From the IMG/VR virus record IMGVR_UViG_3300025305_001678, positions 1 to 24,454 of that record: DNA of 24,454 nucleotides. One strand, written 5' to 3'. Below are positions 7,520-16,790 of this stretch, piece after piece. This DNA comes from a virus. Every line of letters begins with the position of its first letter. The first letter of the stretch is position 1. Both the position numbers and the translations under genes were made by a program. Below the pieces are notes generated by a model that had not been told where the DNA came from, ran no database searches, and saw only the letters and a list, made by a program, of their open reading frames with translations.

Positions 7520-10500
7520 ATGGTAGGACCTAAATTTGAAAGTCCTTTTGATAGGGATGACAGGGCAGATACTATTACTAGGTCAACTTATTATTTAACT
7601 AGAAGGCAAAGAGAAAAGTTAAAAGATAAGATGTTGCGTGAACAGGCTAATCGTGTTAGGCAGCAACTTTTAACTAAACCACAATTTACCCCTATGGACT
7701 TTAATAAGTTTGATGTTCCCAGCCTACCTGAAGATGCACAATCGAGCATTCTTGTAGCCCAAGCTAATGCCAACAATCCAGATCCAGTTTCTAGGGAGAA
7801 AAATGCTAACTGGTTTATGAAAGCTATGCAGAAATGGGATGACTGGACTGTATCAGCATCAGCATCACCCCTTAATCCTATAACAGGAGCAGCTAAGTCA
7901 TTTAATCCCAGATTTGGCAGGGAATTAGCCAGAAAAAAGAAAAGATTTGAAAGAGAATATTTAAAATCAGGCAAAACTTCAAAAGAAGCTCATACATTAG
8001 CATCCAGAGCTGCTTGGAGAGAGACAGAATATGCTAAAACAAAGATTTTTGGATGGGAAGTAGATCCTATTAAATTTGGTATAGAGGTAACATCTGATCC
8101 TAGTAACTTTTTATTTTGGGGTGCAGGAGCAGGTATAAAGGCTGGAGTAAAAGCAGGTGCTAAGAGAGGAAGAAGAATAATAGCAAAAGCAGATGTGAAG
8201 ATAGGAATACTTAAAGGTAGGGGTGTAGGTAGGGAAGAAAGGATGACTATACCAAGAAATTATTGGCTAAATCAAAGTAAAATAACTATCCATAAAGTCC
8301 TGTTTAAATCGGATGATGCAGCATTAAATAGGGAAACTACAGATAAGTTTATTAGGTGGCTTAAGTTGGGAGAAGAAGGATTGGATGAGAGAACATTATC
8401 TAAATTCCTTAATGATAATAATATAGCTAAATCCTTTAACACCTCTAATAGGCAGTTAAAACAGGTTTATAAGTCTCCCTTATTTAAAAGTTCAAAAAGA
8501 TTCCTGCAAAATGGAAAGTCTGATTTTGAGAATTTGAGATTGCTTAACGATCCAAATGCCATAAGGGACTTAAAAGCTACGGGACATTGGGTGGCATCTA
8601 CTGAAAGTAAATGGTTAGGTCCTTTAAGATGGATGTGGTATTGGGCTGATCCTGCTCCTACAAGATACCAAACAAAATCTGGCAGGGCTTCACTTCTTCA
8701 TGGTATTGGGGAAGGAGAGAATAAAACCTTTGTAGCTGCTGCTGTACGAGAATATCAACAGAGATTCGTAAAATTAGGTGTTGATTTTAGGAAGTTGGAT
8801 GAAGGAAATATGTTTGGGGATTTTATAGATGATTCAATAATAAAACTATCTAAAAAGAAGGGTGGTTTTGGCAAAGATGCAGTATTTGCAAGAGATCAAT
8901 TAAAGGACTGGCATACTTTTTTGGAAAATGCTTTTGACAGTAAAGGAAATGCAGCTAAATGGCTTAAAGTAAATGAGAAGCAAAAAGCTAATTTAAAGGA
9001 TATCGTAGAGGCTTGGGGAGAACACGCTTATCATTTAATCGAAAATGGAATCGCAAAGCCTGAAGCATTCGGTTTAGAGACAATAGTAGAGAAAGGTGCT
9101 CTTAAATATGAGTTGAATAACCTAAGAGCTGGTGGAGCATATATAGGTAGGATAGTAGACAGTATAAAGGATAGGCAGATAAGAAGTGGCAGGACAGCAT
9201 TTACTAAAGCGAGTGCAGAAAAGAAAAGGGTTTTTAAATCTGTTGATCTAGATCCAGATTTTGACAAGTTATTAAATGATGATTGGTCTATAAAAACATT
9301 AGATCAGGCAGAAGAACAGGGCGTTAAATATTTAAATCCGATTGCTACTTATGATATTAAGAGTGGAGAAATTTTACAAAGGGTAAATGATAATAAATTT
9401 ACAAATAGGTTAAAAAGTATAGGTATGAAGAAGTGGAATGCTTCTACAGAAGTAGGAGAATGGAAGGATAAGCAAAGACTTATAATAGAAACGATTAGTG
9501 AGTTCAAAAAACATATACTGAAATTAACCCCTAAAAATCTTTTTAGCAGTTTAAAATATGCAGATGACCTGCAAAGATTAGTACAGAAAACTTTAAAGAA
9601 TCCTGATGCAACTGATCTTGAGGATGTATTAAATAGTATGGAGTCTGCTTTAAATGGACCGATTAAGCAAAGGTCGCATCATCTGGAAAAGACTATACAA
9701 GTAACTAGGGGTTTGAATAGAGAGTATACGGAGCAAAATGAATTAGCTAGGGAATTACTCCTTCATTTAAGAATAGCTCAAGAACCTGATCTTAAAAAAC
9801 TATGGGCAGATAGATTAGATAGAAATATCATTAAGAAGGATAGAAAGCTATTTGGACCTAAAGGAGAGTTGACTTTAAGTAAGGAACGAGAAATTGCGAG
9901 AAAAGCTAAGATAAAACCTAGCGTATGGAGTGATGATATAGAATCAGCTCTTAGGAAGCAAGATTTTGTTGTAGGAAGGTCAGTAGGGGGAGTAGTTCAA
10001 CATGGAACCCTGCTGGAACTGCCTTTATTTAAAAAATATATAAAAGATAAGCTCTCTTTTAAAAAACCTCTAAATGTTACGCAGATGCGTGAGTTATTAA
10101 CTGGAAAGGGAATTAAGGAACTTCCATCAGGCAGGGGAGTGCTAGATGAGTTCTACGATCAGGTTGAGAGGCTTTTAAGTGATCCCCTTCGTACACCTGG
10201 TGCTGTAAACAGGGTACAAAGTTTGAAGGAATTAAAGAATGAGATAGATGATGCAAAGGATGTTTTTAGAAGGCTTATTGATTGGCATGATGCTAATTTA
10301 GCTACCAGGACAAGGGCAACAACAGGAATAGGAAAGTTGAAGGAGGTTATAGATAAGATAGGTACGCTGGATCGCAAAGGTATCTTTGATAAAAATATTA
10401 ATAAGGATTTTTATAATAAGCTGAACAGATTTGTTACCGATTATACTTCTCCTGCTACTAATAAAGAGTTAAGGGATCAAATAAAAAATGAATTAGCTGA

Positions 10501-13393
10501 GAGCCTGAATAAACTTATAGTAAAGTCAGACAATATTATAATGGATAATGATGGACTTTATCGGAATCTTAATCTAATTAAGGATAATCCTGGAATAGCT
10601 AAAAAGGGAATATTAAGGAACTTCAGGAAAAAAGACGGCAGATTTTCACAAAGGGAATTTGATGACATGATGAATAGGTATCCTAAGCCTTTAGCTAGTC
10701 TTTTAAGGGAATTTCAGCAAGATCCTACTTTTGCGAAAAGTATAACAGGGGGTATCGAGTCTGTTGAAAAAGAATGGAATCAGGTACATAAGGCATTGAT
10801 ACAGCAACATGAAAATTTAGATGAGGTTATAAGTAACTACCAGAAAACTTTAGAAGGCAAGGGTAGGTTAGTAGATCCTAATGACAAACTTAAATTTAAT
10901 GAACAGGCTAAACAATTTCTTGGCAGGGATTTTGAAAAGTTTGAAATGGTGGAAAATGTATCTCTTAAAAATGGAATACCTACTAAAGAACTTGAAAACT
11001 ACTTTTTTGATCCAAAAACTAAAAAGGCAGTAGAAGCTTTTATGGGAACTGGATCAAAGAAATTTGCTCAACTTGAAGCTGAACATCTAGGAAAGGTAGG
11101 GGATATTTTAAGGATATTTAAAACAGCATTTGACTTGGGTGCTCCTATGATACAGGGGTTGCCGTTATTTTTTACAAGTCCTGCTGGATGGGCAAGAGCT
11201 ACAAAGAATCATGCAAAGGTGATGTTTTTCGGCAAAGAAGCTATAGCATCTTTTTATGCTTCAAAACGTGAAGTTATTCAAAGATTGATGGATGCAGGCG
11301 GGAATGTATCTGGAGAAGGACTGGATTATTATGCTGCATTAAGAAAAGGGGAATGGTTGCCTAGAGCTTTTTCAAAGTTTGATGATGCTTCAGCAAAAAC
11401 AGGGATCTATGGGACTACCCTTAAAGAAAGGGCAAAAGAAGGTCTTGAACCTATTTTTGGTGCAGGTGCATTAGCAGGAAGATTTAATGATGCTTTTGAT
11501 ACTTTTGGAGATATGGCAAGGATAGAATTATTTGAGGCGTTTGAAAAAACAGCATTAAAAAAAGCATCAAAAGCAGGAATGGAAGAAGGGTTAGCTATGC
11601 AGCAGTTAGCAGATATGGTTAATAAAATGACTGGTGCTTTTGACTCTAGGGCATTAGGTAAAAATAGAGGAAGTATAGCTTTGGAAAGAGCCTTTATGTT
11701 CTTTTCCCCCAGATATACTAGGGCTAGTATGTCTGTAATAGCAGATGTTTTATTAGGTGGCAGTAAAAATGGTATTCAGGGAGAAATGGCTAGGGATACT
11801 CTTTTGAGAATGTTGAGTGGTGGAGTAACTATGTATACAGGAACAATTATAGCTAAAAATATGTTAGAAGCAGAAATGGGGGTTCCAGAAGCAGAAAGGG
11901 CAAAATTATATTTAGATCCCAGACCTACTTCTGAAGGTGGAGATGGTGGTAAGTTTATGAAAATACAAATCGGAGAGGATTTTATTGGTCCAGGTTCATT
12001 TTGGGTATCAGCATTAAAGCTTACTGGAACTATATTAGGAGATCCTGCATTTAGGGGAGATAAAGCCGATTCTCCGTTATTTTTCCAATCAGAAGAACCA
12101 AGACCAGTAACTGCAAATCTTTTAAGGAATCCTATAGTTATGTGGCTGAGAGGCAGGACTGCTCCTATATCAGGACTTGCATGGGATCTTCAGCAGAAAC
12201 ATACTTTTATTGGAGAGCCTTTAGAAAGTGCTGTAGATATAGAAAAGCATATAGCAACGCAATTAGCTCCATTTTGGCTTGAAACTGGTGTCTTAAAAGG
12301 TGGGATTCATGCTGCAGGAGCAATTTTTGAGTTTGGAGGATTTAACGCCAGAGAAACTACAGATTGGGAAAAACTAGAGGATGTTCAGGATCAGGAAGCA
12401 CAGCGTATTCATGATGTTAACTGGAATGACTTAACATTATTGCAGAAAGAGGAAATTAGAATAGCGAATGTAGGAACTACTGGTGATATAGCTGCAGAAG
12501 AAGAAAGGATATTTAAAGAGAGGAGGAAAAGTCCGTTAGGAACAGAGGCACAGGCAGTTATGGGTGATTGGTATCAGGAAATGGATGTAATTAAAGGTAG
12601 GTGGGATGAGCAAGTTCAGGCATTGGATTTAGCTGTGCAGGAAAATACACTGGACTTACCCCAGTATATTCGGTTAATAAAAAATGTTAATAATGAGAAA
12701 AGGATGTCTTTTAAAAGATTGAAGGTTGATCCGATTTATCAGCCTGTTTATGAGAATATAAATTACAGGAAGTTTGAAGATACGGATAATGTAGGTGATT
12801 ATTATTATGATGAGTATATGAGGATACTTACTGATGATGTTACCCATTCATTACTACCTGCTGAATTGCAGGAATTAGGTATAGTAGATGAGGAATTTGT
12901 GGATTGGGATGCTAGGAATGCAGAAATAGCATCATTTGAGGAAGTAGCAGGACCACAGATTATGGAATATATACAGGCTAGGCTGGAAATACCAGCAATA
13001 GGTGAGGGAGCACATCCTTTATATCAGGAATATCTAGCAGGTAGAAAAAAATACCTGGATCTTTACTATCGTGGAGTTGAGGAAGAAACTATAGCTTATC
13101 ATGGAGAACAGGCTAAGGAGGCTTATAGGGAATGGAAGAATGCTGTTAATTATGCAGTTAGGGCAGAGATGGAAAAGAGATCACCTTTTATCAGGATGTT
13201 ACTTAGGGATATGAGAAGGGCTAGGGACATAATGAGAAAAACTAACGTTGAACTGGATGCTTTCTTATATAGATTTGGCATAGGTAACACTACTACCTTA
13301 AAGCATCCTTATAATAAATTTGATTTTAGGAAAGGTGAGTTAGCTATGCCTTTTCCTATGCAGACCTATGTACCTACCTTTACAGAAGATTAG
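7520..13393 (+). CDS. Giant internal/ejection-type virion protein (1957 aa)
   Basis: This is by far the largest gene here. The protein is Lys/Glu/Leu-rich and mostly helical, with a few hydrophobic or Gly/Ala-rich stretches that could insert into membrane: about 195-215 (SNFLFWGAGAGIKAGVKAGAK region), 1202-1227 (FDLGAPMIQGLPLFFTSPAG region) and 1428-1447. Residues about 1314-1414, containing FNDAFDTFGDMARIE and MFFSPRYTRASM, remind me of the LPD38-type domain of phage large polyvalent proteins; this is recollection, not a search result. I see no soluble lytic transglycosylase GLMQ motif, protease triad or polymerase motif. Size and helical character fit proteins packaged in podovirus heads and injected at infection, like T7 gp16 or P22 gp16/gp20 in role. 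Start is weakly supported: GGAGGA lies about 15 bases upstream. Confidence 0.6.
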   Translation: MVGPKFESPFDRDDRADTITRSTYYLTRRQREKLKDKMLREQANRVRQQLLTKPQFTPMDFNKFDVPSLPEDAQSSILVAQANANNPDPVSREKNANWFMKAMQKWDDWTVSASASPLNPITGAAKSFNPRFGRELARKKKRFEREYLKSGKTSKEAHTLASRAAWRETEYAKTKIFGWEVDPIKFGIEVTSDPSNFLFWGAGAGIKAGVKAGAKRGRRIIAKADVKIGILKGRGVGREERMTIPRNYWLNQSKITIHKVLFKSDDAALNRETTDKFIRWLKLGEEGLDERTLSKFLNDNNIAKSFNTSNRQLKQVYKSPLFKSSKRFLQNGKSDFENLRLLNDPNAIRDLKATGHWVASTESKWLGPLRWMWYWADPAPTRYQTKSGRASLLHGIGEGENKTFVAAAVREYQQRFVKLGVDFRKLDEGNMFGDFIDDSIIKLSKKKGGFGKDAVFARDQLKDWHTFLENAFDSKGNAAKWLKVNEKQKANLKDIVEAWGEHAYHLIENGIAKPEAFGLETIVEKGALKYELNNLRAGGAYIGRIVDSIKDRQIRSGRTAFTKASAEKKRVFKSVDLDPDFDKLLNDDWSIKTLDQAEEQGVKYLNPIATYDIKSGEILQRVNDNKFTNRLKSIGMKKWNASTEVGEWKDKQRLIIETISEFKKHILKLTPKNLFSSLKYADDLQRLVQKTLKNPDATDLEDVLNSMESALNGPIKQRSHHLEKTIQVTRGLNREYTEQNELARELLLHLRIAQEPDLKKLWADRLDRNIIKKDRKLFGPKGELTLSKEREIARKAKIKPSVWSDDIESALRKQDFVVGRSVGGVVQHGTLLELPLFKKYIKDKLSFKKPLNVTQMRELLTGKGIKELPSGRGVLDEFYDQVERLLSDPLRTPGAVNRVQSLKELKNEIDDAKDVFRRLIDWHDANLATRTRATTGIGKLKEVIDKIGTLDRKGIFDKNINKDFYNKLNRFVTDYTSPATNKELRDQIKNELAESLNKLIVKSDNIIMDNDGLYRNLNLIKDNPGIAKKGILRNFRKKDGRFSQREFDDMMNRYPKPLASLLREFQQDPTFAKSITGGIESVEKEWNQVHKALIQQHENLDEVISNYQKTLEGKGRLVDPNDKLKFNEQAKQFLGRDFEKFEMVENVSLKNGIPTKELENYFFDPKTKKAVEAFMGTGSKKFAQLEAEHLGKVGDILRIFKTAFDLGAPMIQGLPLFFTSPAGWARATKNHAKVMFFGKEAIASFYASKREVIQRLMDAGGNVSGEGLDYYAALRKGEWLPRAFSKFDDASAKTGIYGTTLKERAKEGLEPIFGAGALAGRFNDAFDTFGDMARIELFEAFEKTALKKASKAGMEEGLAMQQLADMVNKMTGAFDSRALGKNRGSIALERAFMFFSPRYTRASMSVIADVLLGGSKNGIQGEMARDTLLRMLSGGVTMYTGTIIAKNMLEAEMGVPEAERAKLYLDPRPTSEGGDGGKFMKIQIGEDFIGPGSFWVSALKLTGTILGDPAFRGDKADSPLFFQSEEPRPVTANLLRNPIVMWLRGRTAPISGLAWDLQQKHTFIGEPLESAVDIEKHIATQLAPFWLETGVLKGGIHAAGAIFEFGGFNARETTDWEKLEDVQDQEAQRIHDVNWNDLTLLQKEEIRIANVGTTGDIAAEEERIFKERRKSPLGTEAQAVMGDWYQEMDVIKGRWDEQVQALDLAVQENTLDLPQYIRLIKNVNNEKRMSFKRLKVDPIYQPVYENINYRKFEDTDNVGDYYYDEYMRILTDDVTHSLLPAELQELGIVDEEFVDWDARNAEIASFEEVAGPQIMEYIQARLEIPAIGEGAHPLYQEYLAGRKKYLDLYYRGVEEETIAYHGEQAKEAYREWKNAVNYAVRAEMEKRSPFIRMLLRDMRRARDIMRKTNVELDAFLYRFGIGNTTTLKHPYNKFDFRKGELAMPFPMQTYVPTFTED

Positions 13394-14232: not shown

Positions 14233-15138
14233 ATGGCGACAGGATTAACACTGTCCGATACTTCCAGTTTGGAAGATATGAGTGCAATAATGATAGCAAA
14301 TGCTATTGCCAACATTGAACCTGCTGGACCAACTAATCAGTTGGTTAGCCGATATGACATCGGAAAGGGCGTTAAGCAAATTAACGTACCTATCTGGGGT
14401 AGAAATACGGCTGCTGCTCTTACTGAAGGTATAGACATATCTGTTCCACAACAATTAGGCGTAACTGTAAGAAACCTTACTGCTACTGAGCATGGTATTC
14501 TTACTTTTGTGTCTGATAAACTTGTGAGACAGAATAACGAAAGTGTCATGGCTCATGTAGGAGAAGTTCAGGGTAACGCTGTTGGTAGGCTTTTAGAGAG
14601 TGATCTCATCACATTATTTGATGGATTCTCTGTATCAGCTCCAGGTGCTGGTAACGCAGGAACTTTCTTGCACGTTGCTGGTGCCATCTCATACTTGAAA
14701 ACCGATAATGACAGTTCATTTGGACCAGCTCCAGGAACACCAGTAGGTGTATTCCATCCAGAGCAGATCCGAAGGTTCGTTCAGGAATCAACTGGTATTC
14801 AAGGTGGAGGGTCAACTGGTATGGCTGCACAGCCAATTCCAGATGGATATTCGGCAGAAGTATTAAAGACTTACTATAGAGGAAATGAATCGGTATTTAA
14901 CGTACCAATTTATGAGTCAGGAGTCATCTCCAGAGATGGATCAGGTGATTCAAAGGGAGCAATCTTTGTAAAAGAAGCTCTCGCACTGGCTATGGAAACT
15001 GAAATTTCAGCAGAAGAAGAAAGAGATATCTCACTACGAGGAAATGAAGTAGTAACCACAGGAAACTGGGGTGAACTTGAAATCGTAGATACATGGGGTG
15101 CTGAGTTCTACTCTGCTGCAGATGCAGCGTTCTCATAA
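14233..15138 (+). CDS. Major capsid protein (HK97-fold likely)
   Basis: This 301-residue protein follows the scaffold by 13 bases and has GAGG at 14220-14223. Length, position and composition fit an HK97-fold major capsid protein: a short N-terminal arm, a region resembling an E-loop (ISVPQQLGVTVRNLTATEHG), a long helix (about 100-130, ending VGRLLESDLITLF), and an A-domain-like core with the pattern FHPEQIRRFVQES and a C-terminal FVKEALALAMETE followed by acidic and Trp-containing strands. Codon use differs from the neighbours: isoleucine is ATC 9, ATT 8 and ATA 4 times, and TTC slightly outnumbers TTT, where the flanking genes favour ATA and TTT. That fits adaptation for very high expression, as expected of the main structural protein. 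Confidence 0.82.
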   Translation: MATGLTLSDTSSLEDMSAIMIANAIANIEPAGPTNQLVSRYDIGKGVKQINVPIWGRNTAAALTEGIDISVPQQLGVTVRNLTATEHGILTFVSDKLVRQNNESVMAHVGEVQGNAVGRLLESDLITLFDGFSVSAPGAGNAGTFLHVAGAISYLKTDNDSSFGPAPGTPVGVFHPEQIRRFVQESTGIQGGGSTGMAAQPIPDGYSAEVLKTYYRGNESVFNVPIYESGVISRDGSGDSKGAIFVKEALALAMETEISAEEERDISLRGNEVVTTGNWGELEIVDTWGAEFYSAADAAFS

Positions 15139-15149
15139 TCAGGTGATTA

Positions 15150-15545
15150 ATGACTACAACTTCTAGTGCAGACATATTTGAATACCAGACCAATAGGCAT
15201 ATAAGCCGTCAAACTGGTTATGGTGGAATAGATCTGTCTGCAGAAGAAGGACAATTTACCATCATTTATGATGGTTTGGATGGTTCTCCTTTTAGGGTTA
15301 GAAAATCTGATGTTGATAGATATCTCGTTAAAACTAAACGAGAGTATATCTTGCAGAAGAATGGAAATCTTAAATATATAGGAGAACTATTTCCAGCATT
15401 TGTAATAAATAAGGAAGAAGCTCGTATTGTTTCTGGTAAAGCTAAGAAATTCGCTATTTCTGGTAAAGCCAACGGACATCATAAAAAGAGAAGGCGTGGA
15501 GGCAAGAGAGCAAGGAGAAGTTATGATAACTCAAGAGTTAGCTAA
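15150..15545 (+). CDS. Hypothetical virion protein with basic C-terminal tail
   Basis: I do not recognise this 131-residue protein. It begins 12 bases after the capsid gene, with CAGGTGAT upstream as a modest ribosome binding site. The middle is probably a small beta/alpha domain (GQFTIIYDGLDGSPFRVRKSD). The C-terminus becomes extremely basic: residues 112-123 are KKRRRGGKRARR, apt for contact with packaged DNA or another acidic surface. The same purine-rich codons supply the AAGGAG ribosome binding site for the next gene, which starts 23 bases before this one ends. A capsid-associated or head-completion factor is plausible from position, but that is inference. Confidence 0.65.
   Translation: MTTTSSADIFEYQTNRHISRQTGYGGIDLSAEEGQFTIIYDGLDGSPFRVRKSDVDRYLVKTKREYILQKNGNLKYIGELFPAFVINKEEARIVSGKAKKFAISGKANGHHKKRRRGGKRARRSYDNSRVS
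15512..15517 (+). promoter_or_regulatory. Ribosome binding site AAGGAG deciding the 15523 start
   Basis: AAGGAG ends five bases before the ATG at 15523. An alternative in-frame TTG at 15427 would add 32 residues but has no comparable site and would lie deep within the upstream gene. This site is embedded in codons for the basic tail of the upstream protein. Confidence 0.75.
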
Positions 15546-15981
15546 GTCAATGTGGGGTGATGTAGTAGATAATATTAAAATATCAGATCATAAAGATCTT
15601 TTAGAAAAATATCTAGTTAAACATGACCTAAATGCTTTACCTGTACCTGAATGGTCAGATCAAGCAGATATGGCTTACTTTTACTTGCAATCTCGCAGAA
15701 ACGGACAACTCGTCTGGGAAAAAACTAAGGCGAGGGCAACTTATGATGCTGTTATTAGGTTAATCGAGAAAGGTGCTCTCTTTGCTCCCCCTGTAAAGGA
15801 TGTTGAAGCTGAAGATAGTAGCACAGACAACGAGCAGCTCCCTAAGTTAGATACAGACGAGCTTTCTCCTAAAAAATATAAATGCGAACATAAGTTTAAA
15901 AATAATAGAGTGTGCAGGAAAGAGTATAAGACCATAGGTCGCTTTCTTGAGCACAAGAAAAAACATGGAGGTCAGAAATGA
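15523..15981 (+). CDS. Hypothetical protein with C-terminal zinc-finger-like motif
   Basis: The 152-residue product from ATG 15523 overlaps the preceding gene by 23 bases. The N-terminal two thirds look helical (LAKSMWGDVVDNIKISDHKD, then ARATYDAVIRLIEKGALF), followed by an acidic Ser/Asp/Glu linker (about residues 97-116). The C-terminus carries C121, C131, H144 and H148, that is C-x9-C-x12-H-x3-H. The Cys-to-His and His-to-His spacing match a classical C2H2 finger, while the Cys-Cys spacing is longer than the usual 2-4. It may bind zinc and nucleic acid, or be a structural zinc knuckle in a head-tail joining factor. I do not recognise the family. The gene ends in an ATGA overlap with the next one. 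Confidence 0.65.
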   Translation: MITQELAKSMWGDVVDNIKISDHKDLLEKYLVKHDLNALPVPEWSDQADMAYFYLQSRRNGQLVWEKTKARATYDAVIRLIEKGALFAPPVKDVEAEDSSTDNEQLPKLDTDELSPKKYKCEHKFKNNRVCRKEYKTIGRFLEHKKKHGGQK

Positions 15982-16322
15982 CAGTAGGAACAAGACAGTA
16001 TGAATCTGTTAATTCTACAACCACTACCATGTCTGGTAATGCTGATTTAACAATTACAAATGCAAGTGATAAATTACAACTTGTTGATCCTGGTGGATCG
16101 GCAAGAAATTTGGATCTGATTTTAGTTGACGCTTCAGAAACAGGTGTAACAACTAGTTTTGCTGAAGTTTATATTCAGAATGAAGCAGACGCAGACGAAG
16201 GACTTACTATTCGTGATGGCAATAACTCTGATAACGCTATTAGTGTTCTTGACCAAAACGCAGGTGGTTGGTTTAGATTTTGTGCAGGTCAGTGGTCATC
16301 TTCTACGTCTGGATTAAACTAG
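15978..16322 (+). CDS. Small beta-rich virion protein (decoration or fibre-like)
   Basis: This 114-residue protein starts within an ATGA overlap, with GGAGG just upstream (from about 15967). It is rich in Ser, Thr, Asn, Asp and Gly with alternating hydrophobics, typical of a beta-sandwich (NADLTITNASDKLQLVDPGG). The C-terminal ISVLDQNAGGWFRFCAGQW resembles the closing strand pair (Gly-Trp-x-x-Phe ... Gly-x-Trp) often seen in phage fibre or head-decoration domains. I infer an exposed capsid decoration or short fibre. It is the last gene before a 165-base non-coding gap. Confidence 0.6.
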   Translation: MTVGTRQYESVNSTTTTMSGNADLTITNASDKLQLVDPGGSARNLDLILVDASETGVTTSFAEVYIQNEADADEGLTIRDGNNSDNAISVLDQNAGGWFRFCAGQWSSSTSGLN

Positions 16323-16487
16323 ACATAGTATAGAATAAATAAATAGATGAAGGGCTTGTAAAGTTTAAATTAAAACATAAGAATCTTGTCGCTAGGGTTT
16401 AATAGACCTGACAAGGGAGTATTATTGATTTTTGGTTAGAACAAGGATAGCAACAAGCCCTTTATCTAAAATGGAGGAAATTAAAAT
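16323..16487 (+). other. 165-base intergenic gap with RNA-like structure
   Basis: This is the longest internal gap in an otherwise packed operon. It contains a long-range inverted repeat, a nested hairpin and, at its 3' end, the GGAGG (16473-16477) ribosome binding site of the next gene. No credible gene fits: an ATG at 16347 gives only four codons and one at 16471 only seven. No canonical terminator (stable hairpin directly followed by a T run) is seen. Confidence 0.7.
16344..16468 (+). ncRNA. Candidate structured RNA: long-range stem with nested hairpin
   Basis: The arm TAGATGAAGGGCTTGT (16344-16359) is the reverse complement of ACAAGCCCTTTATCTA (16453-16468) at 15 of 16 positions, and the one exception is a G-U wobble in RNA, giving a continuous 16-pair stem closing a 93-base loop. 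Inside, CTTGTC (16385-16390) pairs with GACAAG (16410-16415), and AGG (16394-16396) with CCT (16407-16409), forming a hairpin with a three-base bulge. CTTGT occurs twice and ACAAG three times (16411, 16441, 16453), so alternative pairings are possible. The 3' arm ends four bases before the next gene's Shine-Dalgarno site. It could be a translation regulator, a stable processed RNA or an RNA-stability element. I cannot match it to a known RNA class. Confidence 0.5.
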
Positions 16488-16790
16488 ATGTTAGGTGATG
16501 AAAAATTAGCAGTAGACGCAACTGTAAGAACTTTACAGGATGATGCTCGGCTTAGTGCTACAATGGCTTCTTTTAGTACTGAAACAGCAGCTATTAGGGT
16601 TAAGTTTAATGAAGATCCAGCTACTGCAGTAGGTCAATTAATTACTAATGGAGATCAATGTGTCATTTATGGTAACGATGCTATTCGTGCAGCTAGATTT
16701 GTTGAGGCTACAAGCACAGATTCAGTTATTAATGTAACTTATGGTACATATACTGGTGGAATGCATGGTCTAATAAATTATGGTTCGTAA
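16488..16790 (+). CDS. Small hypothetical virion protein
   Basis: This 100-residue protein follows the structured gap; GGAGG (16473-16477) is its ribosome binding site. It is probably an alpha-then-beta protein: a short N-terminal helical segment (LAVDATVRTLQDDARLSATM) leads into beta-like sequence with AIRVKFNEDPATAVGQLI and SVINVTYGTYTGG. The latter looks to me like small beta-rich domains in phage fibre or decoration proteins, but I cannot name a family. Its stop overlaps the next start by one base (TAATG). Being the only small gene with a long structured leader, it may be individually regulated or especially highly expressed. Confidence 0.6.
   Translation: MLGDEKLAVDATVRTLQDDARLSATMASFSTETAAIRVKFNEDPATAVGQLITNGDQCVIYGNDAIRAARFVEATSTDSVINVTYGTYTGGMHGLINYGS

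Follow-up and report, generated by a model that had tools for sequence, protein, structure and literature searches.

Tailed phages need far more copies of the capsid subunit than of the tail subunits, yet the genes for both are often transcribed in one late operon. Late-gene output in lambda is reportedly set mainly by translation initiation, and in T7 double-stranded stems between genes are a classical RNase III substrate. T7 also carries Tphi, a hairpin that separates gene 10 (capsid) from gene 11, has a six-T run after the stem and acts on the T7 polymerase, and in lambda the gaps immediately behind D (decoration) and E (capsid) contain hairpins. An apparent strong terminator, similar to that of T7, lies immediately downstream of the capsid gene of LUZ100, and phages therefore do regulate at the post-capsid junction (PMC10134795). 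In the E. coli malE-malF operon, differential decay depends on an intergenic protective structure, at which exonucleases halt so that the upstream mRNA persists (PMC5927463).

The DNA analysed here (the window) is a complete virus record of 24,454 bases. Its gene order is large terminase, a 638-aa product in the usual place of the portal, two very large proteins, the capsid protein, g131, g172, U114, a gap, D100, g162, g437 and g824. As the first-pass annotation had claimed, the 165-nt gap between U114 and D100 stands out, being the only inter-gene gap in the window above 60 nt; the one other gap of at least 30 nt measures 52 nt. The gap holds a hairpin element, present as a single copy in the record, and the features around it are the following.

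14233-15138, plus strand: major capsid protein gene, the first gene of the block closed by the hairpin; the product is 29-32% identical to annotated pelagiphage capsid proteins
15978-16322, plus strand: U114 (114 aa), directly upstream and the last gene before the hairpin, placed by synteny, a structural model and fold matches of modest Z
16344-16359, plus strand: 5' arm of the closing stem, from folding, comparison with relatives and pair probabilities in context
16360-16452, plus strand: enclosed segment of 93 nt, not conserved (3-93 nt in relatives)
16384-16416, plus strand: bulged hairpin nested within the 93 nt, from folding; the nearest relatives, L039 and L044, lack it
16453-16468, plus strand: 3' arm of the closing stem, from folding and relatives, with no U-run behind it
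16473-16477, plus strand: Shine-Dalgarno sequence GGAGG of D100, 4 nt 3' of the stem
16488-16790, plus strand: D100 (100 aa), directly downstream of the gap, a cupin-like barrel in the model

The block ended by the hairpin thus comprises the major capsid protein (MCP), g131, g172 and U114. The capsid protein matched Pfam Phage_capsid_4 weakly, under the family cut-off. Neither U114 nor D100 received a PHROG or Pfam assignment, and comparison with the sequences of solved structures and with PHROGs gave no functional name for either. The structural models suggest that U114 and D100 may be small virion proteins. The U114 model resembled tailspike and capsid-spike beta domains with modest scores (Z 9.4 for 24qj, 8.5 for 7rej and 7.6 for the Pa223 capsid spike 9ny6) and that of D100 a cupin-like barrel, fold scores of this size showing no function. 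The C-terminus of g172 (15463-15981), CEHKFKNNRVCRKEYKTIGRFLEHKKKH, resembles a zinc-finger Cys/His pattern, and a 1957-aa protein of the head region (7520-13393) had no match in an NCBIfam search. No DNA similarity was found between the gap region and cultured phages.

Folding bore out the geometry initially described. The two arms pair at 15 Watson-Crick positions and one G.U across 93 nt, the nested bulged hairpin was recovered at 16384-16416 (previously given as 16385-16415), and the 3' arm stops just short of the GGAGG. The structure has a predicted energy of -39.2 kcal/mol (z = -5.18), and none of 200 dinucleotide shuffles was equally stable. When the stem was folded in its context, the probability of the closing pairs was 0.88-1.0.

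Relatives were gathered by scanning viral contigs with U114, D100 and the capsid protein as queries. About 50 related viral contigs, of uncultured marine phages, preserve the flanking gene order; 53 loci, 41 of them distinct, have U114 with sufficient sequence behind it, and the gene order is common to all. Just behind the U114 stop codon, a stem was present in every distinct gap examined (38-41), beginning 2-22 nt past the stop and usually followed by the next Shine-Dalgarno sequence 0-10 nt behind it. Under a strict test, in which an ungapped helix was scored when anchored no more than 30 nt from a stop codon, 33 of 38 U114 ends passed, as compared with two of 33 capsid-gene ends, none at the ends of five other genes and 1.3% of randomly chosen positions; the related loci are not independent of one another. 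The five that missed the ungapped score (L044, L059, L093, L075 and L078) nevertheless carry shorter or bulged stems. A similar helix scan over 401 kb found 56 helices elsewhere, or roughly one every 7 kb. When z-scores from shuffling were computed for pieces of a fixed 125 nt behind each gene, U114 stood apart only to a moderate degree, since short gaps are diluted by the coding sequence that follows them; anchoring the helix score at the stop codon gives the cleaner test.

The sequence of the gap is not retained with the stem. The first 26 gap sequences fell into 12 groups that align poorly, and at least 12 unalignable groups are present overall; hence the stem has been kept or remade many times. 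Stem length is 11-17 bp in most cases, and several members amount to short, plain hairpins. Several groups enclose only 3-6 nt, among them L024, whose loop is UUCG, and the window with its 93 nt is thus the extreme of a simple hairpin. In one group (L022, L023, L024, L025 and L028) the hairpin remains behind U114 although a small ORF separates it from D100; this inserted ORF, confined to these five loci, is lysine/glutamate-rich, encodes about 32-40 aa beginning MAEFKFE and has its own Shine-Dalgarno sequence. Nearly identical hairpins in L043 (7005-7104) and L053 (6920-7020) stand behind U114 genes only about one-third identical to each other's group, and the same holds for the clearly related hairpins in L044 (6998-7104) and L039 (7100-7222). 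Gene exchange may take place at the hairpin, and the junction may be a recombination point. What is conserved is the stem and its place, whereas the sequence, the inner hairpins and the repeats proposed to act as a switch are variable.

The base changes within the stem point to the molecule under selection. When the Watson-Crick cores were extended under a symmetric rule that treats G.U and A.C alike, the stems of the relatives contained 20 G.U mismatches, no A.C and four others. A preference for G.U with no A.C indicates that the plus-strand RNA is the molecule under selection; this asymmetry is not expected from a DNA cruciform or a minus-strand RNA. The compensatory changes sought in near relatives were found, and they keep the pairing. 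Between the window and L039, pair 3 changes from G-C to A-U and pairs 4, 6 and 15 show one-sided changes that keep the pair, and among L053, L050, L052 and L028 G-C is swapped with A-U, and C-G with U-G and U-A; in the alignment used, L053/L043 are misaligned at their two outermost pairs and L044 in part. Thus, the proposal of a selected RNA structure holds, as judged by its conservation in relatives, the compensatory changes and the fixed place in the late operon. The proposal of a discrete new RNA family is not supported, given that the groups cannot be aligned, several members are plain hairpins with loops of 3-6 nt and Rfam returned no match, no family reaching the gathering threshold and a permissive threshold giving nothing credible. 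The relatives share a simple intercistronic stem as the conserved unit. On this strong comparative support the RNA element is judged real and conserved, and it is of a known kind, the intercistronic hairpin. No description of a hairpin behind U114 was found in the open-access literature.

The interior of the element was the basis for proposing alternative pairings, as in a switch. The two CTTGT and three ACAAG copies are indeed present in the window gap. However, the closing pairs are near probability 1, and the repeats, the inner multiloop and the inner hairpins of the window are missing from L039, L044 and most other relatives. The members of one group share an inner AGGUUUAAUAAGCCU-like hairpin, to which a stretch of the window is similar; no inner element is common to all groups. 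Conserved alternative pairings, as expected of a riboswitch-like RNA with two states, were not found among the relatives, and a switch is not supported. Three further readings, namely a switch with a regulatory role, a separate small structured RNA and the remnant of a mobile element flanked by terminal inverted repeats, would account for the long interior, the nested hairpin and the 16-bp inverted repeats at the ends in the window, but not for an interior that is absent from the plain-hairpin members, and as a set they are considered highly improbable. In particular, a MITE-like remnant was rejected because the record contains one copy only and no empty site was seen, every relative carrying a hairpin.

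The explanation considered best, to which about an even chance is given, is an intercistronic 3'-protective (mRNA-stabilising) hairpin that would close the capsid block, the protection and its effect on protein ratios being inferred. The hairpin would mark, on the plus-strand late mRNA, the 3' end of the MCP-g131-g172-U114 block. An endonuclease would cut the long late transcript further downstream of the hairpin, and 3'-to-5' exonucleases would then halt at the stem, so that the capsid-block mRNA would outlast the downstream mRNA and yield more capsid protein. Only the stem and its place would matter, and loops of 3 or 93 bases would be equally allowed. Both at malE-malF and in the window, a stable stem lies between two genes of the same transcript, 3' of the gene to be kept, and lacks the U-run of a terminator. 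Protection was measured at malE-malF and is inferred for the hairpin in the window, and structures of the malE-malF type are often located inside coding sequence or are themselves repeats, whereas the window has a unique stem, placed at a single junction of the late operon of a phage (PMC5927463). The malE-malF protection is the best-supported analogue and fits an element with free loop and sequence; the reported control of lambda late genes mainly by translation initiation speaks against the protective reading.

The main rival is a partial terminator or pause site that would lower transcription downstream of the capsid block, like T7 Tphi. The positions of Tphi and of the apparent terminator in LUZ100 (PMC10134795) favour such a site, as do the tails of the lambda hairpins, and the hairpin in the window resembles Tphi in preceding the next Shine-Dalgarno sequence. 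Neither of the attributes of Tphi, the T-run and the T7 polymerase, was found here. The U-run is absent behind the stem in the window and in nearly all relatives, and a T7-like polymerase was not found in 13 related records of 36-42 kb, which may be incomplete, with T7 as the positive control. The lambda D and E hairpins also differ from that in the window in their shorter stems and T-rich tails. Since the U-run is almost universally absent, the hairpin is not a standard intrinsic terminator, for which a U-run behind a G+C-rich stem is required, and a terminator scan of the window gave no site at the hairpin. Factor-dependent termination or an unusual polymerase are possible variants, and partial termination as a whole is regarded as rather unlikely.

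The closeness of the stem to the next Shine-Dalgarno sequence would also fit a translational role, in which the stem stops a pyrimidine-rich 3' arm from masking that sequence, or insulates D100 translation from, or couples it to, that of U114. Removal of the 5' arm was predicted to make the Shine-Dalgarno sequence less accessible in most loci, but this effect may merely reflect the pyrimidine-rich 3' arms, and the estimate for the window varies with the context folded. Moreover, the following gene differs in the group with the lysine-rich ORF and an open site needs no long stem; a translational element is considered unlikely. An RNase III-type site, at which the late mRNA would be cut between the capsid and downstream genes, has its precedent in the intergenic stems of T7. 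Good substrates of this enzyme have roughly two helical turns, which is longer than most of the stems behind U114, several of which are short, and such processing is considered improbable. The preferred reading remains the 3'-protective hairpin, of which two marks are seen here: a stable stem where the gene upstream ends, and no U-run behind it.

The place of the hairpin relative to the capsid gene recurs in other phages. In the relatives g131 begins 7-25 nt past the capsid stop codon, with no hairpin there; the capsid gene and g131 nearly touch, and the hairpin therefore falls at the first real gap behind the capsid gene. Seven cultured pelagiphages (HTVC026P, 027P, 104P, 111P, 112P, 202P and HTVC011P) have a hairpin without a U-run in their first gap, directly after the capsid gene. 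Like that in the window, these hairpins precede the next Shine-Dalgarno sequence, and a G-rich 5' arm is often a shared trait; unlike it, they follow the capsid gene directly and not three genes later. They are unannotated and have no clear sequence relation to the hairpins linked to U114. In HTVC011P, which is T7-like, two successive hairpins without a U-run (L128, 6578-6763) follow the capsid gene at the site of Tphi in T7. Strong hairpins also occur in distant capsid relatives, either behind the capsid gene or one to two genes further along (L110, 2742-2790; L113, 5469-5520; L116, 6649-6726; L105, 7196-7352). In the helix ranking of each record, the post-capsid helix of cultured phages ranked 1-10 and was not always among the strongest, and lambda and HTVC202P had none above threshold. 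Given these uneven ranks, the wider post-capsid pattern is a lead and not a proof.

What gives the element moderate interest is that only place and structure are conserved, and that hairpins recur behind the capsid gene of other phages. Possibly, though this is on balance doubtful, the hairpins represent a widespread unannotated phage device, in which a hairpin without a U-run at the first post-capsid gap would act after transcription to set how much capsid mRNA there is relative to downstream mRNA. Only its structure and position would then be preserved in unrelated lineages of marine phages, while its sequence and loop would turn over freely. A junction hairpin that persists through complete sequence turnover points to a simple dosage device at the mRNA level, and the presence of similar hairpins in cultured pelagiphages makes this idea directly testable.
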